From positions 23,878 to 87,877 of IMG/VR virus record IMGVR_UViG_3300032322_001295: a DNA stretch of 64,000 bases. One strand, written 5' to 3'. Below are positions 2,176 to 25,793 of this stretch, one piece after another. The notes beneath the pieces were generated by a model. The model did not search any database. It had not been told where the DNA came from and saw only the letters and a list, made by a program, of their open reading frames with translations. The first letter of the stretch is position 1. Each line of letters begins with the position of its first letter. The translations under genes and the position numbers were made by a program. This stretch comes from a virus.

Positions 2176-2177
2176 AA

Positions 2178-4450: not shown

Positions 4451-4461
4451 TAAACATTGTA

Positions 4462-4737: not shown

Positions 4738-4786
4738 CCTACAAAAATACAATACAAAAAGATCAATACATAGAACACTAATACGG

Positions 4787-4794
4787 CAAATATA
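4787..4794 (-). promoter_or_regulatory. Candidate Bacteroidota -7 promoter element
   Basis: On the minus strand this reads TATATTTG, an exact match to the TAnnTTTG -7 consensus of Bacteroidota. It lies in the 95-base gap between the RadC gene stop and the gene starting at 4737, about 50 bases upstream of that start. A clear -33 TTG at the right distance is not seen, so this may be a weak or activator-dependent promoter. Confidence 0.4.
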
Positions 4795-4832
4795 ATTAAT
4801 CTTTTATACATTTTTTGTACATTTTAAGATGT

Positions 4833-6055: not shown

Positions 6056-8094
6056 TAGCTAATAACTTGGTATTTATTCTTATCGTTTTTGTAAGCAAAT
6101 GCTGTTTTGAAGTTAAAGCATTCTTTCACTTTCGTAAAGAACGAAACAAACATTGCTTTTCTTCTCTGCTCTGTATCACTAGACTTTATGATGCCTTTAA
6201 TATCAAATGTCTGTAGCGTAGCATTTGCATTAACAAAGTTATACTCATGCATTAAACTAGCAAGTTCTCTCATTTTGGCATTTAAATCAGTTCCATTTAA
6301 AGTTTCCTCTTTAGTTGCAGCATTAAACATTTCAGTGCCTTTTTCCTGACAAAGTTCTATCATTTTAAGACCAGCAATCATACTATCTGTATCAGCATCA
6401 TCATCAATAGTGCTTAGTATTTGATTTACTAGATTCTTAACACGCATTCTCATGATGAACTCACTGCCTTTATATGGAATACCAATGTTCTTGCAAATGT
6501 AAGTAAGCAATGCTTCGTCGGCTTCATCAATAGAATTATAGATACTTTTGCCTGTTTCGTATACATTGATATAGCACATATCTACAACAAACTTGCGTCT
6601 TGCTTTAGCATCATCGTCAATCTCTTCAGATCTTTCTGTTGCTTTCTCAGTCATATCTGCACGCTTAAGTTCAATAGAACTGTATTCATTCTCGTATTCT
6701 TTCTCCAAATCAATGTTATTGTCTTTAAAGAACATAGTAAGAACATTAGGAGTATAGGATGCCATTGTCATCAGATTAGCTTGTAGAAACACAGTCATCG
6801 CATAAGATGCACCAGCTTTTTCAACAAGGTCTGCGCCATTGCTAATGCTGTCACCAAGTAAATGCTCAATGCAATTACTTAAAGCATTGTTGATGTGCAT
6901 ACCTTTAAAGAAAGCAAGTACAGCATAGTCTAAAGTTGCTCCATCTTGATTAAGTTGCTTCATCAATCTAAACACAACATCTTTCCTTGCTTGCTCTTTC
7001 AAGCTTGTAATCTTACGATTAACACGCTCAATAGCAGCATCTTGCTTTTTCTCAACATAACTTTCTTCTGCTTTGACACTTTCAATCAAAGATGGCTTGA
7101 CAAAGAACTTAATATTGCCATCATAATCCCAGCAAGCAACTTCTTCAGGATGTGTACCCATAGCGCATGATATATATCCCGTTATGTCATATCTGTCAAC
7201 AACTTTGAGTTTGTTTTCATCGATAAACTTTTCCCAATATGCCCTTGATCTAGCTTTTGTTGCATAAATATCAGATGTTCTAGGTCTATCAAACATATTA
7301 CCTACGTTGATGTACCATTTCTCTTCTTTGATATTTGGATGCACATTGCCATCTAAATCAACAAAGCTTTCTTCTGGAACACTTTCAGATATTTCCGGCA
7401 TGCAATAGTTAGACAATCTTACTATTTCTCTATCATCAAGAGCTTCACCTTCTGTATGCAAATCACGATCATAAATCTCGTCAACAATCAATTTTTGTAC
7501 AGCATCAGGCATATCGCACAATGCAGTAGCGCCAGACTCGTCGATAACACCTTCAAAGCAAAGCTTTATAGCTTCTTTGTTTAATGCCGCTATCTTGCGA
7601 AGTGATGTTGCTCTATTTACAGAAATACCAAGCTGACTAGCAATCTTTGGCAATGTCACACCTTTAACAGCAACAGCCTGTCTGATTGCATGGGCCAATG
7701 TAATAAAATGCTGCTCACTGCGAAGTACATTTTCAGTCAATGAATCGACAATGTTAATGCCATCCATAATATAAACTGGGATTTCTGCAGTAGCATCAAT
7801 CTCTTTACACAAATCTTCATAACGAGTAACAAAAGCCATTGCTCGGGTGTAGCCGGCACGAACAACATACTTGCCTTTTACTTGCTCGCAGATGATTGGC
7901 TGCAGCAATAAAGAACCAGTCTTTTTGTAGGTCTCAACCATTGAAACATACATTTTATCAATAGCATCACCATACGGAGTAGCATCATTTACATCATAAT
8001 CTATGCCAGCAAATCTAGGATTAGGTATAGAAAAGTCAAGCAAATCTGGAGTTACTTTCAACATTTCGTTTTTAATTTTAATATTAGAAGCCAT
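6055..8094 (-). CDS. ParB-family protein with long C-terminal region
   Basis: The N-terminal 110 residues form a ParB/Srx nuclease-like domain: LLQPIICE (63-70), then AGYTRAMAF (80-88) in place of the canonical GERRxR phosphate-binding box. ENVLRSEQHF (121-130) matches the ENLQR-type motif. A KorB-like helix-turn-helix follows at about 148-170 (LPKIASQLGISVNRATSLRK). The remaining 500 residues are helical and of unknown role. At 679 residues it is about twice the length of chromosomal ParB. It may partition or organise phage DNA, or regulate transcription. No ParA gene is visible. A terminator hairpin lies just upstream of its start. Confidence 0.8.
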   Translation of the reverse strand: MASNIKIKNEMLKVTPDLLDFSIPNPRFAGIDYDVNDATPYGDAIDKMYVSMVETYKKTGSLLLQPIICEQVKGKYVVRAGYTRAMAFVTRYEDLCKEIDATAEIPVYIMDGINIVDSLTENVLRSEQHFITLAHAIRQAVAVKGVTLPKIASQLGISVNRATSLRKIAALNKEAIKLCFEGVIDESGATALCDMPDAVQKLIVDEIYDRDLHTEGEALDDREIVRLSNYCMPEISESVPEESFVDLDGNVHPNIKEEKWYINVGNMFDRPRTSDIYATKARSRAYWEKFIDENKLKVVDRYDITGYISCAMGTHPEEVACWDYDGNIKFFVKPSLIESVKAEESYVEKKQDAAIERVNRKITSLKEQARKDVVFRLMKQLNQDGATLDYAVLAFFKGMHINNALSNCIEHLLGDSISNGADLVEKAGASYAMTVFLQANLMTMASYTPNVLTMFFKDNNIDLEKEYENEYSSIELKRADMTEKATERSEEIDDDAKARRKFVVDMCYINVYETGKSIYNSIDEADEALLTYICKNIGIPYKGSEFIMRMRVKNLVNQILSTIDDDADTDSMIAGLKMIELCQEKGTEMFNAATKEETLNGTDLNAKMRELASLMHEYNFVNANATLQTFDIKGIIKSSDTEQRRKAMFVSFFTKVKECFNFKTAFAYKNDKNKYQVIS

Positions 8095-8105
8095 ACAAAT
8101 GGTTT

Positions 8106-8140
8106 AAAAAGTAGCCTGCACACAGTTTCCTTGTGCAGGC
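8106..8140 (-). terminator. Rho-independent terminator after ssb
   Basis: A perfect 9-bp stem (GCCTGCACA at 8114-8122 with TGTGCAGGC at 8132-8140) with a 9-nt loop is followed on the minus strand by TACTTTTTAAA. It ends the unit carrying ssb and separates it from the ParB gene. Confidence 0.75.
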
Positions 8141-8155
8141 ATTGTGAAATAATAT

Positions 8156-8557
8156 TTAGAACGGTAGATCTACAACCGGTTCTTCTTGTGAACAAATCCA
8201 AGAGCCTGATTCATAGTACCAGCCTTCAACCCATGTTGCTTTGTAGCGAACAGTAGACTTTTCAAGCTTAGTGTTGTTGTCAGTCCACTTTTCAAGCTTA
8301 GGCAGTACTCGAACAACAGCCATCTGCTTTTGCATTACAATGTCTTTTATTTGTCTCACAAGCTTTTCGCCATAGGCAATGCAGTTAGCATAATATGGAT
8401 CACTTTCTTGCTTGTTGCCATCTTTGTCTTTCCATACATCTTTGATGAGGATAACAAACTTTACACCAGGTCCTCTTTCAGTTGAAAAGTCTTCTACTTT
8501 AGTGTCAAGGATTTTACCCGACAATTGTGTGCCAGGAAGATACTTCTGTGTTTTCAT
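8156..8557 (-). CDS. ssb: Single-stranded DNA-binding protein
   Basis: A 133-residue OB-fold-type protein with beta-rich body and an acidic tail ending EEPVVDLPF. A terminal D-x-P-F is the tip by which bacterial SSBs recruit replication and repair partners. It coats single-stranded DNA during phage replication and recombination. It lies two bases downstream of an unknown protein and in the same unit as the Erf annealing protein, a usual pairing in phage recombination modules. Confidence 0.8.
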   Translation of the reverse strand: MKTQKYLPGTQLSGKILDTKVEDFSTERGPGVKFVILIKDVWKDKDGNKQESDPYYANCIAYGEKLVRQIKDIVMQKQMAVVRVLPKLEKWTDNNTKLEKSTVRYKATWVEGWYYESGSWICSQEEPVVDLPF

Positions 8558-8559
8558 GA

Positions 8560-9468
8560 TTAAAATATTAAATTTGGAATAACTTGTTTAGATAATACTC
8601 CAGCATCGTGTAATAAAAGAAGCACCGTAAACAGTCCTCTTCTCGTAAATGATGGATAAGTTGTGTTTTTGTCTGCATCATGTATGTTGACTCCAAAACC
8701 ATATGCTACAAACTCTTTAGCAAGAAAGTAGTTGTTTTTGTAGTTTGCATCATTCATATCTTGTATAATGATGCCATGCTCTACCAAAACTTTCATTGTG
8801 TCTCGCAGTAATACTTTGTACTTATTGAACAAGAACTTATGAAAATCTAGCACATGGGTGTCTTTCTCAAAGTTCTCAACAATAGTTTTATTGTCTTCGC
8901 ACATAGCACGGTAGGTCTTTATAGTTAGTCCGTACTCTCTGTAAAATGAATCTTCTTCGACCTCAGTATGTATTCTTTCAAGCAGCTTAGATCTTCTGTT
9001 CTTTAACTCTTTATCTTCTTCGACATCTTTCTGCTTCTCAACATAAGTCTTAGGTACTATTACTGTTGTTTCTACAATATCTTTACGATATGCATTCTTT
9101 AGCATCGTAGTAAATATCTTTTCGAGATACAACTTCATGTCGTAGTTACACCAAGTGTACATCTGTGCAAGCCAAAGATGTGATACAACATAGTAGCACA
9201 TATCAGCTTTAGAGAATACACAGGCCATAGTAATGGTTCTGCCAATCTTATTGAGTTCTATATTTGTTTCCGCTATAAACTCATCTTTTGGCACCCAGTT
9301 ACAAGCAAGTATGTAAGAGCTACAAACAAGAGGACATTCGATGTACAAATGCCCTCCAATAAATTTGTGTCTGTATTGCTTTGTAAAGCTCCTAAGCATA
9401 GAATCTTTGACTATCTTAGGCTTTGGCTCTTTAATTACCTTTGGCTTTTCAGCAGGCTTTCTACCCAT
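8560..9468 (-). CDS. Unknown protein of the replication/recombination module
   Basis: The ATG at 9468 (MGRKPAEKPKV) is preferred to one five codons earlier since it overlaps the Erf gene's stop by only 8 bases. The N-terminus is a Lys/Pro-rich basic tail; the rest is helical with Cys and aromatic residues (VSHLWLAQMYTWCNYD) and a charged middle (residues 145-180). No known domain is recognised. Its position between erf and ssb suggests a role in replication initiation or recombination, which is inference only. Confidence 0.6.
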   Translation of the reverse strand: MGRKPAEKPKVIKEPKPKIVKDSMLRSFTKQYRHKFIGGHLYIECPLVCSSYILACNWVPKDEFIAETNIELNKIGRTITMACVFSKADMCYYVVSHLWLAQMYTWCNYDMKLYLEKIFTTMLKNAYRKDIVETTVIVPKTYVEKQKDVEEDKELKNRRSKLLERIHTEVEEDSFYREYGLTIKTYRAMCEDNKTIVENFEKDTHVLDFHKFLFNKYKVLLRDTMKVLVEHGIIIQDMNDANYKNNYFLAKEFVAYGFGVNIHDADKNTTYPSFTRRGLFTVLLLLHDAGVLSKQVIPNLIF

Positions 9469-10270
9469 GTTTGTGCTTAGCATGTTTTACAATATGCTCT
9501 CTTCTGATGTCATCTACAACAAAGTAATTAAATTTACCCAAAGTGTGAGTGTAAATATACTTGTTGTATAGTAGCGTAGCGCCATTCTTTTTCCAGTTGG
9601 CAAGTATACCATCCAAATGAGTAGCTATAATTGCACCATCGCCTCCATAGAGCATGGTTTGTATAGCTTCTTCAGTTGGATATTGAGCGTTAATGCGCTC
9701 TGGAACATCAACTGTAGGCTTAGGAAGTGTAACTACCTCAGTCTTTGGTGATATCTTTGGCGTTTCAATATCCATGCTGTGAATCTTGTCGGTATCTTCG
9801 CCAGTAGGCACCATAAAGATATTTAACAAGAAATACTTCATAGCGTAAGTCATAGCCTTACCCGGAGATTTATCTTGTGAGTCAATACCATGGCCCGATG
9901 ATTGGCCCTCAATGTGTGCACCTGATGTGTGATAAAGCCTAAAAGTAAACACAATATCAGAGAATATTTGTTGCTTTTGCTTTACAGCACCAGTTTTAGA
10001 ATACGGATCTAGCTCTTGCCAACGCTCATGCTTGGTTTCTTTCTGTATTTCAATAGGAACACAGATAAGACCATGAGTAATCATGCTTTTTCTTATTTCA
10101 TTTCTTACTTTTTCGTCTGAAATGCCCTTATAAGAACCAGAGCCAGTACCAACAGTGTCATCTTTCTGAAGATAGTTTACCTCAGACATTACATTGAGGA
10201 CTGCCTCAATCAGTTGTATTTCTGGTGTCTTTTCTTCTGATGATTGTTTCGAGATTTCTGTCTTCGCCAT
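9461..10270 (-). CDS. erf: Erf-type single-strand annealing recombinase
   Basis: The 269-residue protein has the hallmark of the ERF family: G126-H-G-I-D-S-Q-D-K-S-P-G-K-A around residues 126-139, then a YAMKYFLLN helix and a V-P-T-G-E-D-T-D end of domain. The family anneals complementary single strands and, with SSB, supports recombination-dependent replication. A Pro-rich linker (170-200) leads to a separate C-terminal region. Its start lies 65 bases inside the end of the upstream gene. Confidence 0.9.
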   Translation of the reverse strand: MAKTEISKQSSEEKTPEIQLIEAVLNVMSEVNYLQKDDTVGTGSGSYKGISDEKVRNEIRKSMITHGLICVPIEIQKETKHERWQELDPYSKTGAVKQKQQIFSDIVFTFRLYHTSGAHIEGQSSGHGIDSQDKSPGKAMTYAMKYFLLNIFMVPTGEDTDKIHSMDIETPKISPKTEVVTLPKPTVDVPERINAQYPTEEAIQTMLYGGDGAIIATHLDGILANWKKNGATLLYNKYIYTHTLGKFNYFVVDDIRREHIVKHAKHKHG

Positions 10271-10559
10271 ATCTTCTTGCGTAACTGATTGTAAAATATT
10301 TGATTTTAGAATTCTTCATTGCAGTAAATGACACTTCAACATTGTTCCTGATGCAATGAGATACAGACTTAAAGATATCATGCAGCATTACGCTACATAT
10401 ATTTTCCATGTCTTTGTCAGGTACAAGCATATCGTAGTTTAGGAAAAGTCTTTCAAACTTATCTTTGTGCTTAGCATACAAATACTTTCCGTATTCCCGT
10501 GCCGGCATTTCAGCATGATTAGACCTTGCCAGCCTACGGCGTATCATATCAAGTCCCAT
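10206..10559 (-). CDS. Unknown basic protein, 117 residues
   Basis: Arg- and Lys-rich protein (MGLDMIRRRLARSNHAEM at the start, KYFTISYARRYGED near the end) without a recognised domain. The charge suggests nucleic acid binding. It overlaps the Erf gene by 65 bases and the upstream gene by 16 bases. Confidence 0.55.
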   Translation of the reverse strand: MGLDMIRRRLARSNHAEMPAREYGKYLYAKHKDKFERLFLNYDMLVPDKDMENICSVMLHDIFKSVSHCIRNNVEVSFTAMKNSKIKYFTISYARRYGEDRNLETIIRRKDTRNTTD

Positions 10560-11419
10560 AGTGCTTTATAGAAACTTATTGGTTCGTTAACAAACATTTT
10601 CTTTATTTCGGCATGCTCAGGAGTGTATATCTTATTTGTAATTATGATATTTTCTTTGTCATTGATCCAAGATTCTAAATTCTTTTGAATGAAACCTTTT
10701 AACGACAAAATATATTCCTCAGGAGTATTACCATCTTTACATTCCCAAAGATACAAAAACCATTTTTTAATGATAAATAAAAATCCATTGTACTGTGCAT
10801 CATCACGTTCTTTGCCAGAACTATTTGTAGCTCCGTTTATACGTAATGCTGCATTGATCATAGTATCTTTAGTTGCCCATTTGTCGCCTTTCTCAAACCT
10901 GGACCACGCAAGCGCAAACAAACGAACTATTTCGCCTGGCTTTCTGTAATCTTTAGTAGGTTTAATGTTAAATAGCGTTTCAATGTCATCAACAAAGGTT
11001 TCTATTTTGTCCTGATCCCAATCAGAAAACTCAATAGTATTCTCATTGATTACAAGATAGGCATACTCATCATATTTGTAATGGTATTCACAATCTTTGG
11101 CTACCGGTATGTATTTTAGTCCGATGTATTGATAATAAATATCAACAATGCCCTCTATTTCTGATGTCCAGTATAGGTCTTTTGGACAGGTAACAAGTTT
11201 GTTTTTGATAAAATAATTGTACAGATTATTTTCTACAGTACCATAATTATTATCAAACTTTACATCAAACTTTTGGCAGATAGACATAACAACATCTTCT
11301 GTTTTATGTTCTGCTTTTTCATCTACAATAATTGACAAAAAGTAAAGGGCATTATATCTTTTTAGTGATAAATGCCCTTTTGTACAATTACTTGCGCTAT
11401 AAACAATACTATTCATCAA
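10544..11419 (-). CDS. Unknown protein, 291 residues
   Basis: A soluble protein rich in Tyr, Trp and acidic residues. No family is recognised. Residues 150-215 (PGEIVRLFALAWSRFEKG and onward) look helical, and the C-terminus is a run of helices ending in YKALWDLI. It starts inside the last codons of the endolysin gene (11-base overlap), so its expression is tied to it. Confidence 0.55.
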   Translation of the reverse strand: MMNSIVYSASNCTKGHLSLKRYNALYFLSIIVDEKAEHKTEDVVMSICQKFDVKFDNNYGTVENNLYNYFIKNKLVTCPKDLYWTSEIEGIVDIYYQYIGLKYIPVAKDCEYHYKYDEYAYLVINENTIEFSDWDQDKIETFVDDIETLFNIKPTKDYRKPGEIVRLFALAWSRFEKGDKWATKDTMINAALRINGATNSSGKERDDAQYNGFLFIIKKWFLYLWECKDGNTPEEYILSLKGFIQKNLESWINDKENIIITNKIYTPEHAEIKKMFVNEPISFYKALWDLI

Positions 11420-12269
11420 GATTTGCTAGATTATAAGAGTTAATAATATGCCTCAACTCAGCTACATATCTGCTAGTAACGCCATCACTTGCTGGCCATG
11501 CACAAGCACTTGCATAAAGATAACCACCTTTATCAGCGAGTTTTTTGGAGTCCGACGCAAGCATACGATTATCACTACATCCACAGATAGCAGCAAGCCA
11601 GGCTTCTCTTTTGTTTGGAATATTTATCAGTCTTGGTGCATAAGTTTTATTTAGCAGCTGCACATGATTCCACATAGACCACCAACGAGATTCATACTTA
11701 CGAAAATGATAACTTATAGTCTTGCCATTTATATCTTTATCATAGGCTTTTACACTACCAGATATACCACGCGATGTTTCCGTTTTACCACCCATATGAC
11801 CAAATAAGTTATTGGCAACATTTGCTAGTCTACTGGTGCCGTAACCTGATTCAAGAATAGCTTGTGCTGCAATAATACTAGCAGGAATATTAAACTTAGC
11901 AGACAAATCTTTAGCATTCTTAGATATGTCATCTACAAATGCTTGTCTTTCTTTGCCTATTCTAGTTTTTAGTCTTGCAAGCTTTTCTTGATCGCCTTTT
12001 AAATGACTGCCTTGAAACTCACTACTTGACATATACCCACGCTTAGACCATCCATCTTCATCATATCCAACATCAGGATATAACTCATCGGCACCGGCAT
12101 GTATGTGCTTATGTTCAACAGGTTCTCTGCTAATCATTTTTCCATTGGAATGACTTCTTTCAGCTACGCTAGTCTTGTAATCTATTGCTTTTTCTGTTGG
12201 TTCTTCTACTATGCAGTAAGCTACAATAGTAACCACTAGCATAAATAAAGACACATTGAATGTTTTCAT
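11409..12269 (-). CDS. Signal-anchored glucosaminidase endolysin
   Basis: An N-terminal hydrophobic segment (residues 6-21) could be a signal-anchor, then a charged linker to about residue 105. A FlgJ/GH73-type N-acetylglucosaminidase domain follows: IIAAQAILESGYGTSRLA with E140 as the expected catalytic acid, then NNLFGHMG and SRYVAELRHII. It would cut peptidoglycan during lysis. A signal-arrest-release mode is plausible, since such enzymes reach the periplasm without a holin pore for the enzyme itself. The gene lies in the replication block on the minus strand, not beside the holin-like genes at 26.3 kb. Confidence 0.85.
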   Translation of the reverse strand: MKTFNVSLFMLVVTIVAYCIVEEPTEKAIDYKTSVAERSHSNGKMISREPVEHKHIHAGADELYPDVGYDEDGWSKRGYMSSSEFQGSHLKGDQEKLARLKTRIGKERQAFVDDISKNAKDLSAKFNIPASIIAAQAILESGYGTSRLANVANNLFGHMGGKTETSRGISGSVKAYDKDINGKTISYHFRKYESRWWSMWNHVQLLNKTYAPRLINIPNKREAWLAAICGCSDNRMLASDSKKLADKGGYLYASACAWPASDGVTSRYVAELRHIINSYNLANLDE

Positions 12270-12994
12270 AACTTTGCCATTAAAGCTGTTAAGGAATTGG
12301 AACTCTTCTCGCGTTCTTCAGCAAACACTGGTGAAGTTTCCTTTCTTACGGTATTCAAGCTATCTATACCGGCAACAAACATAGTATAGCGCTGTGTGCC
12401 GACAAGCTTTTTCATCTTACGTTTGCCTTCAGCACAGATAGCTAACCGCCATTTATCTGCTAGTTTTAGATCAGTAGCAACATATAGCAATCCTTTAGGA
12501 CTATCGTAACCTCTAATGCCATATATCACATCAAGTACATATTGAATATGGAATGACAGTTCTGGATAGTACAGTTCATTGTCTTCATCTTTAACAGATG
12601 GATAAAACATACAGCTAAGTATGTCAGATTCTTGCTGTGGCGTAATGAAAGCCATGTCCTGTATTTCTTTATTGTCAACGCTAAACAATGGTGCCTTGCC
12701 TGCTTCTATGATACTGTCAATACATAACCACATAGGAACAACAGTTTCTATTGGTTCGAAATAGATATCACATAGTGCTACTTTGAATACTGGGTCTGCA
12801 TACCTTACCTTAATAGTCCAAGGAGCGATAAGATACACCTTTTCTAAGAATAACATAGCTATAAGATTATCAAGCTCTTGAAATGTTCTTATACAATCAA
12901 AACCAAAAGAACGCAGCAAAGAGTTCCGCTCTACTGCGTCCAATGGTATGACGTTCTTGTCAGAAAGGAGTTTTAGTAACTCCCGTAACGACAT
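12266..12994 (-). CDS. Unknown protein, 242 residues
   Basis: No domain is recognised. The first 60 residues are helical (MSLRELLKLLSDKNVIPLD), the centre is rich in acidic and aromatic residues, and the last 40 are charged. The stop overlaps the endolysin start by ATGA and the start is 35 bases inside the upstream gene, so it belongs to the same leftward transcript. Confidence 0.55.
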   Translation of the reverse strand: MSLRELLKLLSDKNVIPLDAVERNSLLRSFGFDCIRTFQELDNLIAMLFLEKVYLIAPWTIKVRYADPVFKVALCDIYFEPIETVVPMWLCIDSIIEAGKAPLFSVDNKEIQDMAFITPQQESDILSCMFYPSVKDEDNELYYPELSFHIQYVLDVIYGIRGYDSPKGLLYVATDLKLADKWRLAICAEGKRKMKKLVGTQRYTMFVAGIDSLNTVRKETSPVFAEEREKSSNSLTALMAKL

Positions 12995-13793
12995 TGTGTG
13001 CTGACTTGATATGTTCTATGATGCTGCTATAAGTTGACAAAGCCTGCTGCGCTTCCTTGTGATGCTTAACATCTTGGTAAAGCTTATGCGGTATGTCTTT
13101 CAGCGTATCTTTGTATATTTCGAAATACCAGTTAAGTGGATCGAAATAACGTATCTGCTTATGCTCACGCATCTTGAAGAAGTTATCTATATTTGGCACC
13201 AAGTGTGCTTTCTTAGACTTCAATAGTTCAAGCTTCTTTCCTTCGAAGTTCAGTTGCATATCCATAGTATACATCAACCTGTTACGGATAAGCTGAATGT
13301 TATTCTGTGTCTGATCTGACATCTTATACAACAAGTTTACTGCTAGCTTAAGCACACCAAGTGTTACCGGCTTAGTTGCTACTTTCTCATAGTAGTTCTC
13401 TAGTTGCATAGCCATACGAAAGCATTTGCCTGATGTGTTGCCCATACGAGCGATAAGCTCAAACGTAGGTAGAAAGTTCATTTCTTTCAGTTGCTGCTCC
13501 TGGCCCGAAATACTAAGTACATTTTCAGCATCATCTGTATCTAATAGATGACTTGCAGTATGTGCTGTATGCTCTGACTGTGAATAGTATATTGGATCTA
13601 CACCAACAAGAGAGTTTTCCCAAGTAAGCATCTCTTCTGGTTGTAGGCTGATATACGTTTCTAATAGTCTTGCAGCGTTGTCAGTCTGAAATCCAATAAG
13701 ATTCTGACTGATAGAGAAGTGATCACCGCGCTCGGTATCACCCATAAACGATGCAAGGACTTCAGCTATTCTTTTTTGTTCCTGCTTTTTCAT
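12960..13793 (-). CDS. Unknown helical protein, 277 residues
   Basis: Almost wholly helical and soluble, beginning MKKQEQKRIAEVLASFMGD. A basic stretch at about residues 180-195 (LNFEGKKLELLKSKKAH) may bind nucleic acid. No family is recognised. It overlaps the upstream Gp157-type gene by ATGA. Confidence 0.55.
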   Translation of the reverse strand: MKKQEQKRIAEVLASFMGDTERGDHFSISQNLIGFQTDNAARLLETYISLQPEEMLTWENSLVGVDPIYYSQSEHTAHTASHLLDTDDAENVLSISGQEQQLKEMNFLPTFELIARMGNTSGKCFRMAMQLENYYEKVATKPVTLGVLKLAVNLLYKMSDQTQNNIQLIRNRLMYTMDMQLNFEGKKLELLKSKKAHLVPNIDNFFKMREHKQIRYFDPLNWYFEIYKDTLKDIPHKLYQDVKHHKEAQQALSTYSSIIEHIKSAHNVVTGVTKTPF

Positions 13794-14269
13794 GATATTC
13801 TTAAACTTATGTTTTCAACAATTGATGCACCAGGTATATCTTGACCATCAAGAATGGCATTCCTAATATCAGTTTTACTTGGCTCACGTTTAAACCGGCA
13901 ATAAATGTCAGGTATGAGTGAATCATCACTGATTTCTACTGCTTTACTTTTAGTAGTTGCAATCTTTACAAGAGCTGTTTTAACAGGACCAAACGCAATA
14001 ACATTCTGCAACATACGATCTTTAAGCACTTCAACTGATTTATCATATTGCTGTGCCTTTTTAAGTAATCTATGAGCTTCTTCGCGCAATAGTTCTGACT
14101 GTGCTTTGAGACTTTTTACAACGAACGAATAGTCTTGTAATTTTTTGTCTCTTTCTTGTTCAGCTATTTCAAGCTGTTCTAGTAAAAAATCTGGAATTTC
14201 TCCACCGTTGTCCTCTATGGATGTTTGGATAAGAAATAACTCCTGACTGATTTCAAATAGATTTGCCAT
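13790..14269 (-). CDS. Siphovirus Gp157-like protein
   Basis: Starts at 14269 (MANLFEISQELFLIQ) in a TAATG overlap with the upstream stop; an upstream in-frame ATG would bury 29 residues in that gene. The 159-residue protein has the Gp157 (PF05565) layout: a helical N-terminus, a long central coiled coil (residues 30-95), then a strand-rich end (KTALVKIATTKSKAVEIS, IPDIYCRFKREPSKTDIRNA). Gp157 proteins occur in recombination and replication modules of many phages; their precise function is not known. Confidence 0.75.
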   Translation of the reverse strand: MANLFEISQELFLIQTSIEDNGGEIPDFLLEQLEIAEQERDKKLQDYSFVVKSLKAQSELLREEAHRLLKKAQQYDKSVEVLKDRMLQNVIAFGPVKTALVKIATTKSKAVEISDDSLIPDIYCRFKREPSKTDIRNAILDGQDIPGASIVENISLRIS

Positions 14270-14610
14270 TAAAATACGTTGTTTTCGATAATTACTGAAT
14301 TGATTAGTTCTGGGTTCAATGTAAACATATGACCATCTGATGTTAATACATACCAATCATCTTTAAAGCCTTGAACTATTTTACCTTGATTGCCATTGTA
14401 AGTAACTATGTCACCATCACGATATCTGTATGGCACACCATAAACAATAGCATCTTGCTTTAGCCAAACATTTTTGTCATTTTCGCTTGAATATAACCAG
14501 AGATCACCATCGGTATCCATTTTAAGGCTTTTGATATCAAAAGCTAAGAATACTTGATCACCTTCTCTGTAGTTTCTTTCGGACAACTCCGATGCTTTAA
14601 ACTTTTCCAT
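14269..14610 (-). CDS. Unknown protein with SH3-like C-terminus
   Basis: The 113-residue protein ends in a run of short strands (YRDGDIVTYNGNQGKIVQGF, DDWYVLTSDGHMFTLNPELI) that looks like a KOW or SH3-like barrel. No catalytic motif is seen. It is the first gene of the unit that runs leftward from just behind the terminator at 14625-14662 to the one at 8106-8140. Confidence 0.5.
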   Translation of the reverse strand: MEKFKASELSERNYREGDQVFLAFDIKSLKMDTDGDLWLYSSENDKNVWLKQDAIVYGVPYRYRDGDIVTYNGNQGKIVQGFKDDWYVLTSDGHMFTLNPELINSVIIENNVF

Positions 14611-14624
14611 AATTGAATGTTGTT

Positions 14625-14662
14625 AATAAAAATGCCTGCAAACTCGTTAGATCTACAGGCAT
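14625..14662 (-). terminator. Rho-independent terminator
   Basis: A 7-bp stem (ATGCCTG at 14632-14638 with CAGGCAT at 14656-14662) is followed on the minus strand by TTTTTATT. It ends the unit carrying the secreted protein at 14678-15166. Confidence 0.7.
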
Positions 14663-14677
14663 AGGTTATAAAATAAT

Positions 14678-15166
14678 TTAATTCTTGCTAATACAATCAA
14701 AAGTATTCATTAACTTTGTAGCAATCTCATCGCTTAGATCTTCTTGAACATAACCACTGCTTGTATAAACACGCATGGTCTTTATCTTTTTAGTTCTAAA
14801 CTGAATAAGATTGTATTCATTGCCAAAGTTACCACCAAAGTAAATAACAAAGCTACCTTTGCAGTTAAAGTCATTGACGTTAGTCATAGTAAGTCTTGTG
14901 TCATCATCAAACAATACCTGTAGTTTAGCATTTTTCTCAATGCATTTGCTTGGACCACCTACAACATCAATACTCCAGATAAGAATACTTGGCTTAAGAA
15001 AGTCTATAACAAATCCTTTATCACCGGATGCCGATATAGCAATACGTTTTTTGATAGTCTTTGTAGATTTGTCTTCCATCTTATCGTAATGTACATCAAG
15101 CATATCACAATCTTGAGCGAATAATGATGCCGACAAAAGCATAAGAATGCTAATCAATACTTTCAT
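14678..15166 (-). CDS. Secreted protein of unknown function
   Basis: Starts at 15166 (MKVLISILMLLSASLFAQ), which is a clean type I signal peptide with likely cleavage after the SLFAQ stretch; an upstream ATG would add 29 residues lying in the preceding gene. The mature part (about 140 residues) is beta-rich with Cys residues at the start, in the middle and near the end (DCDM, KCIEK, NDFNCKG, FDCIS) that could form disulfides. It would act in the periplasm or at the envelope, for example in superinfection exclusion or lysis timing; this is inference. Confidence 0.6.
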   Translation of the reverse strand: MKVLISILMLLSASLFAQDCDMLDVHYDKMEDKSTKTIKKRIAISASGDKGFVIDFLKPSILIWSIDVVGGPSKCIEKNAKLQVLFDDDTRLTMTNVNDFNCKGSFVIYFGGNFGNEYNLIQFRTKKIKTMRVYTSSGYVQEDLSDEIATKLMNTFDCISKN

Positions 15167-15359
15167 TGTTACGGTTTTTAATATGTTCTTCAATAAGTTC
15201 CTTGATAGATCCATAAGCAAGCTCCCACTCATGCGTGGGAGATGCGCCTTCATCTATCTCATCTATTGCAAGCGTTACGAAATCTAGTATATCATGTTTT
15301 AGTGCAGGATATTCAGATATCATTTGCATTGCATAGTCGTTTACAATTTTTCTGTTCAT
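15150..15359 (-). CDS. Unknown small acidic protein, 69 residues
   Basis: The ATG at 15359 overlaps the upstream gene's stop as ATGA and is preferred to an earlier Met. The protein is helical and acidic (KHDILDFVTLAIDEIDEGA). No family is recognised. Its last 17 bases overlap the signal peptide of the next gene. Confidence 0.5.
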   Translation of the reverse strand: MNRKIVNDYAMQMISEYPALKHDILDFVTLAIDEIDEGASPTHEWELAYGSIKELIEEHIKNRNNESID

Positions 15360-15955
15360 TTGTACCCAATCATTGCGCATAGAGGTCCCAAAATATCTGC
15401 TACAAGCATAACTGCTTTAGCTTTGGGTCTAGCGTTGTCATTTAATCCATTTAACCCTTTGTTTAATGAAGGATACGATGGCATAATGGTATTCCATTTT
15501 CCTAATATGCAACTACTACTAATAGCATTGCATTCTTCCTGAATGTTATCAGTTTTCAATGTACCTGTTCTGTCTACAACATTATATGCTTTGGTCATAG
15601 CAGCACTAAGCTCTTTACCATTACGCTTATAACTATGCGCTATAGTCATAACAGCGCTCATATTCTTTTTACTTATAGGTTCATATCTCTTACGCGCTAG
15701 CTCTACAAACAATGCAGAGATGTAATGAGATAAATAGCTGAATCCAAACTGCTTTCCCTGGTACTCATAGTCCCATTTGTAATGAAAGAAGTTTCTATGC
15801 TTTGCTTGCAAGCCGGCAAACTTACGGACAATAGCAGAGCATGCATCAACAATAACTTGCTTTTCTTCTTTAGTAGCCAGCTCACCTTCAAAGATTTCTT
15901 TAGCCTCAATAAGTTGAGCTGAAAACTTATCGATTGTTTCTTGAATATCGTTCAC
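15356..15955 (-). CDS. Unknown protein, 199 residues
   Basis: The first 40 residues are an acidic helix (MNDIQETIDKFSAQLIEAKE); the middle has an aromatic basic section (KHRNFFHYKWDYEYQGKQF); the C-terminus is hydrophobic (KAVMLVADILGPLCAMIGYK) and might touch a membrane. No family is recognised. It heads the unit that begins just behind the terminator at 15977-16005. Confidence 0.55.
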   Translation of the reverse strand: MNDIQETIDKFSAQLIEAKEIFEGELATKEEKQVIVDACSAIVRKFAGLQAKHRNFFHYKWDYEYQGKQFGFSYLSHYISALFVELARKRYEPISKKNMSAVMTIAHSYKRNGKELSAAMTKAYNVVDRTGTLKTDNIQEECNAISSSCILGKWNTIMPSYPSLNKGLNGLNDNARPKAKAVMLVADILGPLCAMIGYK

Positions 15956-15976
15956 GATTTATAATTTTAATAATAA

Positions 15977-16005
15977 AATAAAAAGGGCAGCTATTACAGC
16001 TGCCC
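15977..16005 (-). terminator. Rho-independent terminator
   Basis: A perfect 8-bp GC-rich stem (GGGCAGCT at 15985-15992 with AGCTGCCC at 15998-16005) and a 5-nt loop are followed on the minus strand by TTTTTATTTTATTATT. This is the strongest terminator in the window and closes the unit starting near 19.2 kb. Confidence 0.85.
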
Positions 16006-16036
16006 CAACACACTATAAACACAAATAAACACTAGT

Positions 16037-16519
16037 CTAATCTTCAATCTCGTAATGGTGTACACGCTGGTACTCATCATCACGCATAACTTTTACATTA
16101 TTATTGCCTTGTAACTGTGCAACAGCGCATTCGTATGGTATAATATACCCATACTTATTAAAGTACACAGGCTTATTAACTAAGTCTTCACCAGATGTAT
16201 ATTTGTATCCGGTAAACTCTATTGTTTCTACATAAGCTTGTATAAAAGATGATAAATCTCTTAAAACTATTTCAGGCTTTATGTCGCTAAACACTGCAAG
16301 ACATTCAACTAAGTCTTTACTCTTAGCTAATGCTTCAAGATTATGGTATGCAATGATAGTGTCATACTGTCCTAGATCTTCTTCAGGAACAGCAATAGAT
16401 ACATGTACTTCCATAAGATTGTTATCACGCTGTCCAAATAAAGTACAAGCGTTCATTAGTAATACGATAACCGCAACAATCACAGCGTTTACCATATAGT
16501 TGTCATAATTATTTTTCAT
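16037..16519 (-). CDS. Membrane-anchored protein of unknown function
   Basis: A hydrophobic stretch at residues 9-24 (MVNAVIVAVIVLLMNACTLF) acts as signal or anchor. The LMNAC ending could be a lipobox, making C25 a lipidated residue; the fit is imperfect. The remaining 130 residues are acidic and soluble. It is the last gene before the terminator at 15977-16005. Envelope location is supported; function is not. Confidence 0.55.
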   Translation of the reverse strand: MKNNYDNYMVNAVIVAVIVLLMNACTLFGQRDNNLMEVHVSIAVPEEDLGQYDTIIAYHNLEALAKSKDLVECLAVFSDIKPEIVLRDLSSFIQAYVETIEFTGYKYTSGEDLVNKPVYFNKYGYIIPYECAVAQLQGNNNVKVMRDDEYQRVHHYEIED

Positions 16520-16520
16520 G

Positions 16521-16862
16521 TTAGATAAATGTTTTAAATGAAATAAGATTTTTTATCTCTTCAATACTACTCACTGCATCAGCATCGCCGCCATCATCGT
16601 CTTTGTTACTGCCGATGATAAGAGCATTGCCAATCAGCTGTTGTGCGCCCCAACTATTTCCTGGTACGTTTATAATAAAACCATTTCTATTTGTTGTAAA
16701 AATAGCTTCATCATCTACATACATGTAGTCGCCATTGTCAAAAGAATAACCTCCAGTTATGATATCACAACCTATAAGACTGCGAATCTCCCTAAAGTCA
16801 TTGCCTGTAATCCTGGCTTCAAATATTTCTTTTTTATCGCTATCAATAAATATGGCTCTCAT
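16521..16862 (-). CDS. DUF3846-like protein, 113 residues
   Basis: The start at 16862 (MRAIFIDSDKKEIFEA) lies two bases beyond the upstream gene's stop; an earlier in-frame start would be inside that gene. The sequence shows a YMYVDDEAIF stretch and an IGNALIIGSNKDD end that resemble the DUF3846 family, a small phage and plasmid protein family of unknown role. An acidic DDDGGDAD patch precedes a short C-terminal helix. Confidence 0.55.
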   Translation of the reverse strand: MRAIFIDSDKKEIFEARITGNDFREIRSLIGCDIITGGYSFDNGDYMYVDDEAIFTTNRNGFIINVPGNSWGAQQLIGNALIIGSNKDDDGGDADAVSSIEEIKNLISFKTFI

Positions 16863-16864
16863 AA

Positions 16865-17062
16865 TTAGTCTTCTTTGTATACATGAGACACACAAAAACA
16901 CAGTGTCATCATGATAAGTAAACTAATAAATACCAACACTTTGGTTATAAAAGTTTGGTATACAGCTGTCTCTTGTAAATGGTAGGCAAACAAAAATGCC
17001 ATATTACCAAAGAACAGACCCATTGCAGTCATAAATATTTTTACTATTAGCGCTGTTTTCAT
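16865..17062 (-). CDS. Small two-span membrane protein
   Basis: Two hydrophobic segments at about residues 4-26 and 38-58 with a short polar loop, 65 residues in all. The size and plan fit a holin or a small membrane effector, but the position among early genes argues against late lysis. It ends two bases before the DUF3846-like gene and starts one base before the gene at 17063 ends. Confidence 0.5.
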   Translation of the reverse strand: MKTALIVKIFMTAMGLFFGNMAFLFAYHLQETAVYQTFITKVLVFISLLIMMTLCFCVSHVYKED

Positions 17063-17680
17063 TTATCTATTTATTAAATAATGTTTGAATAATTTTTCCA
17101 TCACATCATGCTTGTTTTTAAAGGTCATCATATATGTACCTCTGGAGTAGCTTAAATCATCTATACTGTATGTCAACTCATCGTTGTGAACATCACTCCA
17201 ATGATTTGGAATAGAAGCCTCACAACAAATAAAATTAGACAATGTGTGTTTCTTAACAACTAAGTTAAAGCTAAACGTATGTTCATATATGTTATCAACA
17301 GTAAAATGTGATACATTAACAAACTTGCTTACTTTAAACCTAATGTCAATCTTTTCAGTGCTACCATCAAAAGATTTAGTGTGACCTCTTTCTATTGGTT
17401 TAGCTGTACATAGAAAACCTGGACAATTAAATACACTTTCTCTGTTATCTCTATATAACTCTTCAAGTGAATAAAAAGATACAAGTATTTCTTTTCTGTA
17501 TAAGTCAAACATATGCTCCATAATTTTGATAGCAAATGATTTAGTTAAGTCATAATTAAAATCACCTTTGTCGGTGCCTTCTTCATAACCAAACTGCTCT
17601 TTTGCTAGCATCTCAGCATATCCTTTCTTGTTGTTATCATGAGAAAACATGAGTTCAACAATCATACTAATGTCTAACAT
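17063..17680 (-). CDS. Unknown protein, 205 residues
   Basis: Soluble, with alternating strand-type segments in the C-terminal half (KIDIRFKVSKFVNVSHFTVD, TFSFNLVVKKHTL) that suggest a beta sandwich. No family is recognised. It overlaps the upstream gene by 7 bases. The similar fold-like pattern of the next gene suggests the two may be related, but identity is too low to judge by eye. Confidence 0.5.
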   Translation of the reverse strand: MLDISMIVELMFSHDNNKKGYAEMLAKEQFGYEEGTDKGDFNYDLTKSFAIKIMEHMFDLYRKEILVSFYSLEELYRDNRESVFNCPGFLCTAKPIERGHTKSFDGSTEKIDIRFKVSKFVNVSHFTVDNIYEHTFSFNLVVKKHTLSNFICCEASIPNHWSDVHNDELTYSIDDLSYSRGTYMMTFKNKHDVMEKLFKHYLINR

Positions 17681-18231
17681 ATAGTTTGTTTTAAAAATAA
17701 AATAATATTATTTACAAAAGTATCGCCAGTAACTGATGTCGTTATATCTCCATCCTGGATTTCATAACGACATTCTGATAAGTTTAAATCAGACCTGTAT
17801 ACGTCATAGCTCCTTACTATATCTAGTGAAAGTAATAACCTGTAAGATGAGTTAAACCAGATGGTAAGTACAACTGACATACGCTCATGTATTATCATTC
17901 TACTTCCACTGTCAAAATCTGTACAGTAATTATATTCATCAACAATATCGTAATGAATATTGCCACAAACAAAATGCTTTCTATCACCTTCAAAGTATCC
18001 AAGGCTATACTGATCATCACAGGATATATCTGAACACTTGATTGCATGTAATACTAAAGCTTCTGCTATGCAACTAATGTATAGTTCAATAGCACTATCT
18101 CTTGTATCAGCATCTGCATCATCTATGATAGATTTCAGTAACAACAAAGATAGCTCCACATCATCAGCCAAGAATAATGTAGAGCATCTCTTTATCATAT
18201 CATTTAGTTCTTGCATGCCGGACCAATGCAT
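17674..18231 (-). CDS. Unknown acidic protein, about 185 residues
   Basis: The frame stays open back to a TTG at 18327, but the stretch before 18231 contains two hairpins. The first ATGs (18231 and 18216) lie within a 12-bp hairpin, so an ATG start with a structured leader is preferred. Residues after the start are helical (MQELNDMIKRC, ELSLLLLKSIIDDADADTR), then strand-rich (MIIHERMSVVLTIWF). No family is recognised. If the TTG start is real, it adds a hydrophobic N-terminus. Confidence 0.45.
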   Translation of the reverse strand: MHWSGMQELNDMIKRCSTLFLADDVELSLLLLKSIIDDADADTRDSAIELYISCIAEALVLHAIKCSDISCDDQYSLGYFEGDRKHFVCGNIHYDIVDEYNYCTDFDSGSRMIIHERMSVVLTIWFNSSYRLLLSLDIVRSYDVYRSDLNLSECRYEIQDGDITTSVTGDTFVNNIILFLKQTIC

Positions 18232-18240
18232 GCGAAGAAC
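18207..18240. repeat. Strong 12-bp inverted repeat at a start codon
   Basis: GTTCTTGCATGC (18207-18218) pairs with GCATGCGAAGAAC (18228-18240) over 12 bp with one bulged base and a 9-nt loop. Candidate start codons for the gene ending at 17674 lie in its arms. A smaller hairpin, CCTAC-TAAT-GTAGG (18253-18266), followed by TTTT on the minus strand, sits just upstream and resembles a weak terminator. Confidence 0.6.
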
Positions 18241-18330
18241 CCAAGAACAAAACCTACTAATGTAGGCAAGTGGGCCCAGTAATAATAAAGGAATACTGAC
18301 AACCCAATGGTCATCAGTATCCCCCAATTG

Positions 18331-18630
18331 TTAGAGATAAACTGTTTCACGTTGTACATTTTTAACAAACGCTTGAAAAACTCTTATTGACTCATCAATA
18401 CCAGGAAGAGTGTTAAACATATAAATATCTTCTACGTTGTTGTTTTTATCTACGTAGATTTTTACTCCGACTTGACCAAATCCGTAGATTCGGTAACTTA
18501 TTATGTAATGCCCCTCATCTTCTTTATACTTCCCATCTTCCCATAGATTAAGTTGGTACTGTGTACCATCGTTAGGAAATAACTCTTCCATTTTATTTAA
18601 TACCTCAGTTCTTAATTCTTGATAGTTCAT
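18331..18630 (-). CDS. Unknown protein, 99 residues, with repeated leader
   Basis: Soluble protein with strand-type patterns (HYIISYRIYGFGQVGVKIYV) and a helical N-terminus (LRTEVLNKMEELF). No family is recognised. Its start follows directly behind one copy of the 50-nt leader element (18637-18686), which fixes the start at 18630. Confidence 0.55.
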   Translation of the reverse strand: MNYQELRTEVLNKMEELFPNDGTQYQLNLWEDGKYKEDEGHYIISYRIYGFGQVGVKIYVDKNNNVEDIYMFNTLPGIDESIRVFQAFVKNVQRETVYL

Positions 18631-18636
18631 AACTAT

Positions 18637-18686
18637 TATACTCTTGTCATCCTCACATAGGCTCGAGTTCTACCTATACGCTTGTT
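18637..18686 (-). promoter_or_regulatory. 50-nt leader element, copy A
   Basis: Lies six bases upstream of a start codon and is the same length as copy B (18916-18965). The plus-strand left part TATACTCTTGTCATCCT and the right end CTTGTT are identical in both. Between them a 5-bp stem ATAGG/CCTAT encloses the loop CTCGAGTTCTA. Compared with copy B, three stem pairs differ in both arms and still pair. It may be a leader RNA controlling translation or a hairpin promoter for a phage RNA polymerase. Confidence 0.7.
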
Positions 18687-18697
18687 AGTTATTTGTT

Positions 18698-18910
18698 TTA
18701 TATTGTTATTTCTGCTGGGTTCATGCAAAGCATGACATCCCACTCTTGACCGTAGTCAGAAAAAACTAAACTGTATGGTTCGCGTTCGTAATACTGAACA
18801 CCATTCCAAGAAAAAAGCATACAGCCTTCTTCGTCCCTGATTTGCAATCCATTATCATCAACACATGGAAGCAAACATTTAAGAGGGACATATTGTCCTG
18901 TCTGTGTCAT
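18698..18910 (-). CDS. Unknown small protein, 70 residues
   Basis: Short protein with an aromatic, strand-rich body (GCMLFSWNGVQYYEREPYSL) and several Cys. The layout suggests a small beta barrel; no family is recognised. The start at 18910 is fixed by leader copy B, which begins 5 bases upstream. It ends 11 bases before leader copy A. Confidence 0.5.
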   Translation of the reverse strand: MTQTGQYVPLKCLLPCVDDNGLQIRDEEGCMLFSWNGVQYYEREPYSLVFSDYGQEWDVMLCMNPAEITI

Positions 18911-18915
18911 ACTTA

Positions 18916-18965
18916 TATACTCTTGTCATCCTTACACGTGCTCGAGCTCTACACGCATACTTGTT
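18916..18965 (-). promoter_or_regulatory. 50-nt leader element, copy B
   Basis: Same length and end sequences as copy A. The stem is CGTG/CACG around the loop CTCGAGCTCTA. The stem sequence differs from copy A but is still complementary, which is covariation evidence that the structure is selected. It sits directly upstream of the start at 18910. Confidence 0.7.
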
Positions 18966-18994
18966 TTTTTAAATGATTTGTTGTTTCTTACTGG

Positions 18995-19034
18995 ATAGTA
19001 CATACTACCCTCGCACCTGTAAACTCAGGTTGTT
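18995..19034 (-). other. Two hairpins in an intergenic gap
   Basis: The gap between the gene ending at 19039 and leader copy B holds GGATAGTACATACTACCC and ACCTGTAAACTCAGGT, both able to form short stems. There is no following T-run on the minus strand, so a terminator is doubtful; an RNA processing or folding role is possible. Confidence 0.3.
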
Positions 19035-19038
19035 ATTC

Positions 19039-19233
19039 TTAATCTTCTAGTTTACGCACGTTCACATACGTTACTACAGTATCACCACTATTATCTGTAT
19101 CTAGAAGTTGATTCCAGATATAATCTGCAACTTTTTCCGCGTTCTCTTCAAGTACATATACACTGTGAAGATTGTCATTTAAATAAATACCATAAGAAAA
19201 TGGTGTTAAATAATCAAAAGATAACTTTTCCAT
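19039..19233 (-). CDS. Unknown small protein, 64 residues
   Basis: The start at 19233 (MEKLSFDYLTPFSYG) is chosen over an ATG at 19248 because the diverged leader copy C begins just upstream of it, in the same spacing as copies A and B. The protein is acidic and soluble, with a YVLEENAEKVADYIW helix. No family is recognised. It is the first gene of the leftward unit that ends at the terminator near 16.0 kb. Confidence 0.5.
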   Translation of the reverse strand: MEKLSFDYLTPFSYGIYLNDNLHSVYVLEENAEKVADYIWNQLLDTDNSGDTVVTYVNVRKLED

Positions 19234-19234
19234 A

Positions 19235-19281
19235 ATACTAGTGACCATTCTTTATAGGGCATTTGAGTCATTTCCCTTGTT
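19235..19281 (-). promoter_or_regulatory. Diverged leader element, copy C
   Basis: Shares the plan of copies A and B: ATACT near the start codon, a stem AGGG/CCCT (19256-19259 with 19274-19277), a loop containing TTGAGTC, and the same CTTGTT end. Similarity is weaker and the loop is 14 nt instead of 11, so this is a candidate relative only. Confidence 0.4.
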
Positions 19282-19437
19282 GTGAAAAATATATAAAGTG
19301 TAGATATAATCACCTATAATAAAACCCACGCAATCACTTACAATATTAGTATGTATAACACTAATAGAGTTGTGCGATATGATGTAGAGTAGAGTAATGC
19401 GCAGCAGATGGTAGCCACTCACACCTTTTCTCTATCA

Positions 19438-19453
19438 TGTTCCACGTGGAACA
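19438..19453. promoter_or_regulatory. parS: parS-like palindrome
   Basis: TGTTCCACGTGGAACA is a perfect 16-bp palindrome and fits the bacterial chromosomal parS consensus (TGTTnCACGTGnAACA), the site where Spo0J/ParB loads as a CTP-dependent clamp. Either the phage's own ParB-family protein or the host ParB could bind it. Only one copy is seen in the window. Confidence 0.75.
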
Positions 19454-19539
19454 ATAGCACTAACAGTCTGACAGTCAACGCTATATGTAAATCATTATCT
19501 AATATTTTGTTATCTTACTAACAGTAGTATGAACCTTTT

Positions 19540-19574
19540 AAAAAAACCCCACGCCCGAAGGCGCAGGGATTTTT
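19540..19574 (-). terminator. Rho-independent terminator, probably bidirectional
   Basis: The stem CGCC-CGAA-GGCG with an outer CCC/GGG (19547-19568) has seven A's on its left, giving a T7 tail on the minus strand, and ATTTTTC on its right. It lies immediately after the stop of the leftward gene at 19576. Confidence 0.8.
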
Positions 19575-19575
19575 C

Positions 19576-19938
19576 TTACTTCTTCTTCTTAGTAGTAGTT
19601 TTGACCACTACTTCTTTCTTTTCTTCTTCTTCTTCAGGAAGTCTAGTCTCGACGACAGCTTTGTTGTTGATGGTGACGAATAACTCCTCACCAGTTTCAA
19701 ATACAAACTCTTGTTCGTCTAGGAAATCTTCTAGGATTCCATCTTTACGTAATTGGTCTATCAACTGATAGGCACCAATGGTACCCTTATCAGTCAAGAT
19801 ACACTGCGAAGCTTTCTGCCCCCAAGTGCCTTTTCCCAATAACTTTACAAGATGTTCCCCTTCTTTCATGAATAGAGGAGAGTTCTTTTCTCCTTTTTCA
19901 ATGATTTCTGTAACCTTTCCTAATGATACCTTGCTCAT
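19576..19938 (-). CDS. Unknown protein with charged tail, 120 residues
   Basis: The first 75 residues look like a small folded domain (GEHLVKLLGKGTWGQKASQC, IGAYQLIDQLRKDGILEDFL) that may be a winged-helix type. The end is an EEEEEKKE run followed by KTTTKKKK, coded by a low-complexity GAA/AAG stretch. Such tails are seen on nucleic-acid-binding proteins. It is transcribed toward the control region and stopped by the terminator at 19540-19574. A regulator of the divide is plausible but not shown. Confidence 0.6.
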   Translation of the reverse strand: MSKVSLGKVTEIIEKGEKNSPLFMKEGEHLVKLLGKGTWGQKASQCILTDKGTIGAYQLIDQLRKDGILEDFLDEQEFVFETGEELFVTINNKAVVETRLPEEEEEKKEVVVKTTTKKKK

Positions 19939-20033
19939 AATACATGAAATTAAAAAGTTAGATAATGATTTAACGCGGGGGTACGATACATTAAGTGCCC
20001 TCCCGTCTTTTTTCTTTTTCCTCTACCAAAAAC

Positions 20034-20065
20034 TTGCATAAAACGTGCTATCTGTGTATATTGTG
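20034..20065 (+). promoter_or_regulatory. Candidate promoter for the rightward block
   Basis: TTG at 20034-20036 and TATATTGTG at 20057-20065 are 20 bases apart, close to the Bacteroidota -33/-7 layout. The first rightward gene starts 33 bases later. A GC-rich dyad (CGGGGG/CCCTCCCG, about 19976-20005) followed by a T-rich stretch lies upstream and may insulate it. Confidence 0.45.
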
Positions 20066-20098
20066 CCATTATTCATTCACTATTAAATCTATATTATT

Positions 20099-20602
20099 AT
20101 GCAGACTAGGATAAATTATTATGTAAGGACTACTACTGGTGGTCATATAAAGTTGGGTACTTTGGTTACGACTAAAGATTGCAAGGTACTGGGGGTAGTT
20201 GAGGAGGTTGGAAGATTACTGGGGATAGATGGGTGGAACTGTTACGAGGTTAATGGCAAGATGGTTGTTGATGGTCCTGGTATTCCTACTGATATTGTAT
20301 ATGATTTTGTTGTTAATCATACTGGTCAGTCTATGAGTTTGAGGTATGATAATAGTATTGATATTAGTGGGTTTGTTGTACCGAAGATAGGGGGGTATAA
20401 ATATGTTGCACCGGTTGTTGGTGATGAGGTTGTTGAGGTAGAGGCTGGTCCTGCTCCGAGTGAGAGTGTTGGGATGTTGAAAGAGCCTGATTATAGTAAG
20501 ATGAAGAAGGCTGAGTTGTTGGAGATATTGGGTGATGACGGCGATGGTAAGTTGAGTAAGGCAGAGTTGATAGAAATTATTGTTAACAAGTTAAAGAAGT
20601 AG
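20099..20602 (+). CDS. Unknown protein with SAP/HeH-like C-terminus
   Basis: A 167-residue protein. The first 115 residues are strand-rich (MQTRINYYVRTTTGGHIKLG, NCYEVNGKMVVDGPG). A Pro/Ala/Glu linker follows, then YSKMKKAELLEIL and KLSKAELIEIIVNKL, two short helices of the kind found in SAP, HeH or LEM domains that bind DNA or end of phage proteins. The gene is markedly G+T-rich on its coding strand compared with later genes. It heads the rightward block. Confidence 0.55.
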   Translation: MQTRINYYVRTTTGGHIKLGTLVTTKDCKVLGVVEEVGRLLGIDGWNCYEVNGKMVVDGPGIPTDIVYDFVVNHTGQSMSLRYDNSIDISGFVVPKIGGYKYVAPVVGDEVVEVEAGPAPSESVGMLKEPDYSKMKKAELLEILGDDGDGKLSKAELIEIIVNKLKK

Positions 20603-25172: not shown

Positions 25173-25793
25173 ATGGACACATATATAAAAGCAGTTCCTC
25201 CAAGCAGCAGTAGAAGCACCGCACAGCTAATGAAAACAGGGCAAACTGTAAGTCAACAAACAGGTGACGATGGTGACTTGGAAGCAGGTAGAAATGTAGA
25301 TTTTACTACATTAGCTGAAAATAATCCTTTTGGAAATACAAACAGATTTACAAGTACAACTGGAAATCAAACATATACAAATACTATAATTATAGATTGG
25401 TCAACTTATAATGGAAACACAGTTTTAGGTTGGAGTAATACATTGAGAGGAGGCACAAGTGCAACTTGGTCGCAAAATATTTCAGCATCATTGCTGTTAA
25501 ACATAGGTGGTTTTTCTTCAGGTTGGAGAATACCAAATATTACTGAATTATTATCAATTATTAGTTTTGGCTTTAATCCTGCTACTTATGTTTTTAATTT
25601 TTTAAATTATAGCCCTTTTAATATTTTAGCAAATTTAAGTACCTCAAGTAGAGCAAGCACAAATACTGTTTATAAAATAAATGTTTCATCAGGTTCAAGT
25701 CCAGCAGCATTTTCGATTGTTGATAGATTTTCTCAAACTAACAGTTATATAGCTTGTAGAACTTTTACAGTAACAGGAACAACACTTTCATAA
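25173..25793 (+). CDS. Lcl/DUF1566-type adhesin
   Basis: The 206-residue protein has GWRIPNITELLSI (about 117-129) and a YIACRTF end (192-198). These match the WRLPT-x-x-EL and C-R-x-F/V landmarks of the DUF1566/Lcl domain, a lectin-like fold related to formylglycine-generating-enzyme folds. Such domains sit at phage fibre tips and bind host surface glycans or proteins. It directly follows the large fibre gene. Confidence 0.65.
   Translation: MDTYIKAVPPSSSRSTAQLMKTGQTVSQQTGDDGDLEAGRNVDFTTLAENNPFGNTNRFTSTTGNQTYTNTIIIDWSTYNGNTVLGWSNTLRGGTSATWSQNISASLLLNIGGFSSGWRIPNITELLSIISFGFNPATYVFNFLNYSPFNILANLSTSSRASTNTVYKINVSSGSSPAAFSIVDRFSQTNSYIACRTFTVTGTTLS

Follow-up and report, generated by a model that had tools for sequence, protein, structure and literature searches.

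The closest described counterparts of the site reported here are the parS sites of bacterial chromosomal ParABS systems (consensus TGTTNCACGTGNAACA). The two share the same 16-bp palindrome, here in a variant that is found exactly on Bacteroidota chromosomes, but the present copy lies in the genome of a phage without ParA or a canonical ParB, occurs once and sits on a promoter-like sequence. Extrachromosomal mycobacteriophages of the RedRock type (PMC7157519) also carry a partition-type site on a phage that, like this one, possibly persists off the chromosome. RedRock and others encode both parA and parB, however, a canonical pair missing from the phage studied here, and the partition sites of RedRock consist of 8-bp direct repeats in arrays, with no chromosomal-type palindrome (PMC7157519). 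A role in transcription is known for parS3 and parS4 of P. aeruginosa, which lie between genes near promoters and where bound ParB lowers transcription by repressing the adjacent promoters (PMC5521831); that case involves chromosomal genes and the chromosomal ParB, whereas the promoter considered below belongs to a phage and is predicted. Among proteins, the ParB/Noc family and phage ParB-fold proteins (PMC7383237, PMC12704722) show the same order of ParB N-domain and helix-turn-helix (HTH) as the product of the phage gene at 6055-8094, which departs from the ParB/Noc family in a C-terminal part of ~450 aa without match, an altered GERR motif and lost parS contacts. According to a review (PMC11652158), the prototypic crAssphage reportedly lives as a phage-plasmid. 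Our literature search, whose reach excluded bioRxiv and most subscription papers, found no report of a host-type parS on a phage. From the comparisons below we infer that the phage site is a lineage-specific, host-type parS with a predicted role as operator or partition site.

Results

The record IMGVR_UViG_3300032322_001295 (87,877 bp, 87.8 kb) carries a 123-bp direct terminal repeat at its ends and is therefore taken to be a complete circular genome. All coordinates refer to the window, the 64,000-nt stretch covering positions 23878-87877 of this record, unless stated otherwise. The phage is of the crAss-like type: its terminase and portal match phrog_6681 and phrog_6547, which places it in the Crassvirales, and the closest named terminases, at 25-29% identity, belong to crAss-like and other Bacteroidota phages. 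A host search by terminase scan of bacterial genome contigs gave no match. The genome also encodes, according to ARAGORN, a tRNA-like gene at 1594-1688 on the minus strand whose anticodon (atca) is undetermined and, in the part of the record outside the window (G000, record positions 1-23877), an ORF of 6,567 aa at 133-19836; its giant counterpart in G001 has ~6,790 aa and is 19-26% identical.

At 19438-19453 lies TGTTCCACGTGGAACA, a perfect 16-bp palindrome that fits the chromosomal parS consensus exactly, both its position and its sequence being as given in the preliminary description. Neither the window nor the full 87,877-bp record has a second match to TGTTNCACGTGNAACA; sites resembling parS with two mismatches occur elsewhere in the window at 18343 and 54268. 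At this base composition, the exact 16-mer is expected 7e-6 times per 64 kb and the consensus about 2-3e-4 times, while the figure of 1.5 in 100,000 proposed earlier is right for uniform base use. The palindrome region had no blastn match in INPHARED.

The same form occurs on bacterial chromosomes. Among 198 Bacteroidota genomes, drawn evenly, 21 (~11%) contain the exact 16-mer and 102 the TTT/AAA form TGTTTCACGTGAAACA, against 0 and 1, respectively, for the reversed controls. The chromosomal matches are often clustered: a Chitinophaga has five of them inside 4 kb, and in several Bacteroidota genomes two lie ~1.9 kb from each other. The proposal that the palindrome is a parS of chromosomal type has thus held up: it is the exact form of Bacteroidota chromosomes, strongly conserved (see below) and located in a crAss-like phage.

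In IMG/VR, TGTTCCACGTGGAACA is present in at least 120 stretches and is at least 60 times commoner than TGTTCACCGGTGAACA, a composition-matched shuffled palindrome (2 stretches) that is an imperfect control in having a stop in one reading frame, while many parS matches fall in ORFs; given this excess, host-type parS in phages without ParABS may be a widespread strategy. Among the matches listed, 44 of 127 sites are intergenic by a crude gene model, against ~11 expected, and a motif search found no canonical ParB in the stretches fetched around them. One stretch, L105 (IMGVR_UViG_3300003650_000024), carries five exact copies of TGTTCCACGTGGAACA within ~6 kb (4324, 6308, 8135, 9161 and 10442), mostly intergenic, and the part of it examined is likewise devoid of a canonical ParB.

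The site had been assigned to the gene-free divide between the two transcription blocks, which proved wrong. The true divergent divide is at 19939-20098, itself highly conserved, between the first leftward gene (19576-19938, minus strand) and the first rightward ORF (20099-20602, plus strand). The palindrome sits inside the leftward block, where it is flanked by the next leftward ORF (19039-19248, minus strand) and by the intrinsic terminator of that first gene (19547-19568, minus strand), in which one base pair shows a compensatory change among relatives. The first leftward gene encodes 120 aa without family match, and its DNA is poorly kept (0.26-0.64 at fourfold-degenerate sites). A 48-bp intergenic element with a CTCGAG core is present twice (18638-18685 and 18917-18964), with 37 of 48 positions identical; each copy adjoins a small leftward ORF and is a candidate phage promoter or leader.

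The palindrome coincides with a promoter-like sequence at 19451-19478 that reads leftward on the minus strand, TTGACT-16-TATTGT with a TG before the -10. TTGACT occupies 19478-19473 and TATTGT 19456-19451, separated by a 16-bp spacer, so that the -10 and the palindrome have 3 bp in common and transcription is predicted to start at the palindrome center, at ~19444. Shuffling the region yields 4.7 promoter-like sites on average, and because chance matches are this common, the promoter call rests on conservation and position; the consensus used is of E. coli type and is matched weakly, in a phage of Bacteroidota. Placement on the -10 and +1 of a predicted promoter would add an operator function, which was absent from the earlier account. 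Immediately downstream, a candidate 25-codon ORF, MIEKRCEWLPSAAHYSTLHHIAQLY (19361-19438, minus strand), has its ATG abutting the palindrome and is open in five of five records. Its differences among these records are 2 synonymous and 4 amino-acid-changing, for which reason we treat it as a candidate only; it is a possible leader peptide.

Absence of the palindrome from close relatives had been set beforehand as a result that would refute the parS reading, which withstood this test. Apart from the present one, four IMG/VR records extend across the region (G002, G003, G004 and L145, the same as G039), and the palindrome is identical in all four, hence in five of five with the present one, or in about four independent lineages, since L123 and L145 are nearly identical in this region. 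In the five-record alignment it lies within an invariant run of 54 bp (19432-19485) that also holds the promoter-like hexamers, itself part of a conserved non-coding block at 19308-19548; ~93% of 19350-19499 is invariant across four genomes. To the left of the block, 18350-19300 cannot be aligned among the relatives, and to the right ~60% of positions are invariant (19650-19900). The left flank is a gene-replacement hot spot between phages that are otherwise ~90% identical. Fourfold-degenerate sites of well-kept genes are only ~0.7-0.9 identical pairwise, and 54 invariant bases therefore indicate selection. Since that selection extends beyond the palindrome over the promoter segment, the invariance cannot by itself be assigned to parS.

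In the more distant phages examined, the site is missing. No parS with up to one mismatch to the consensus is present in complete or long distant crAss-like records, among them crAss001, crAss002, ProJPt-Bp1 and ten other named genomes, or in Flavobacterium phage FpV4. Another 28 more distant IMG/VR contigs contain only three consensus matches, all non-palindromic and with one mismatch (G015, 67858-67873; G016, 25361-25376; G028, 16314-16329), which may be degenerate sites or chance. The block model gave no match in contig G011, whose terminase is 53% identical and which may not reach the region. As none of the distant crAss-like phages examined has it, the site is lineage-specific and not shared by crAss-like phages in general. 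A profile search of the distant contigs for the ParB-like gene, without a positive control of its own, likewise came back empty; in a separate search, the same protein as query retrieved its three relatives. Palindrome and ParB-like gene are traits of one clade, and their co-occurrence, as a single event, says little about a link between them.

A ParB-family gene about 11 kb from the site had been put forward as a source of the partner protein. The distance is right and the gene (6055-8094, minus strand) does encode a real ParB-fold homologue, of 679 aa: residues 57-213 comprise the ParB N-domain followed by the HTH, in ParB order, and align with chromosomal ParBs by hhalign at E=3e-5, gap-free across the HTH. 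The relationship is only a distant one, as PF02195 has no match in the phage in a search that was positive for the control genomes. PF17762 matches at E=0.013, below the family cut-off, and phmmer matches to Noc are weak (E 0.33-0.9). A PDB search with a 4-row profile of the protein came back empty, and an AlphaFold model built from four near-identical input sequences has a mean pLDDT of 37.

The GERR motif of this protein reads GYTR. Caulobacter ParB contacts parS through Q162, G170, K171, S172, R173, N178, G201 and R204 (PMC7383237), and the corresponding residues of the phage protein are L, G, I, S, V, S, S and T, so that six of the eight are replaced (Q162L, K171I, R173V, N178S, G201S, R204T). 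In the chromosomal ParBs of Bacteroidota genomes that carry the exact site, all four HTHs read keep K171, R173, N178, G201 and R204. The protein is nevertheless well conserved among relatives in its ParB-like stretch, and is therefore probably functional with another specificity. The phage has neither of the usual partners of a partition site: ParA (PF13614) is absent from the whole record, with 14 of 14 controls positive; no ORF of the genome has a ParA-binding motif near its start; and a canonical ParB with parS contacts and CTPase motifs was not found in the genome. There is accordingly no linkage of parS to parAB, parA being missing and the ParB-fold gene lying 11 kb from the site.

Discussion

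With six of eight contacts lost and neither ParA nor a canonical ParB in the genome, the phage's own ParB-like protein is a poor partner for the palindrome, and the idea that it serves as such is disfavored; the ParB of the host is the better candidate. The phage probably borrows the chromosome-segregation protein of its host. As the leading explanation, to which we give an even chance, a captured host-type parS would load host ParB clamps on the control region and act as operator, partition tag or both. Host ParB would recognize the captured site during infection or extrachromosomal persistence, close as a CTP clamp and slide onto the adjoining phage DNA. With the -10 and +1 of the leftward promoter lying under the site, the first effect expected of bound ParB is at least repression or timing of that promoter. 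Partition is a second possible benefit, as this complex could also link a persisting phage genome to the ParABS machinery of the host. Host ParB binding, repression and partition are what we infer from the sequence. Chromosomes often carry several parS sites, and the single copy in the phage counts against a captured parS, as does the ~11% share of sampled Bacteroidota with the exact form. The conserved function might also be the promoter, the whole 54-bp segment being kept.

Other explanations start from the same observations. The -10 and +1 of a conserved promoter-like sequence are the classic position of an operator, and the whole promoter segment is conserved, as would suit a dimeric phage regulator other than ParB that binds the palindrome on the leftward promoter and makes parS a resemblance only. 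We regard this as rather unlikely, since the chance of a random palindrome half-site with this composition fitting TGTTNCAC is 6e-5 and the parS form of the likely host phylum is matched at all 16 positions. Less likely still is binding by the phage's own ParB-like protein, in a self-sufficient partition or silencing complex. The hhalign result marks that protein as a real ParB-fold homologue, and protein and site share one clade and are both missing from distant relatives, but the shared distribution reflects that single clade, R173 and N178 are among the six replaced contact residues, the gene is 11 kb off, and both ParA and an N-terminal ParA-binding motif are missing.

A role in RNA would require the palindrome to form a hairpin (6-bp stem, ACGU loop) of a leader or small RNA, or to be part of a leader-peptide region. 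Such a stem could form, and the 25-codon ORF begins at the palindrome edge in all five records; we still consider this improbable, because the stem never varies and so gives no covariation, the RNA consensus fold does not support pairing within the palindrome, many shuffles of the leftward leader fold at least as well as the leader itself (z -1.28), and Rfam matches in the region are sub-threshold only. Nor does RNA pairing account for the exact parS sequence. A chance sequence without function is a general possibility and nothing beyond that, and it is barely credible for a site with ~7e-6 expected occurrences per window that is invariant in five phage records amid replaced neighbors.

Returning to host ParB on a captured parS, a more elaborate version, which we put forward as doubtful, would have host ParB silence a persisting episome and tether it to the segregation machinery, with the phage ParB-like protein modulating the clamp. 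A host-type parS in a phage without partition proteins would offer a directly testable mechanism for the persistence of crAss-like phages without integration, and raises the question of whether host ParB holds, silences or segregates the phage genome. Beyond this phage, it suggests that chromosomal-type parS sites form a wider pattern across viral contigs.
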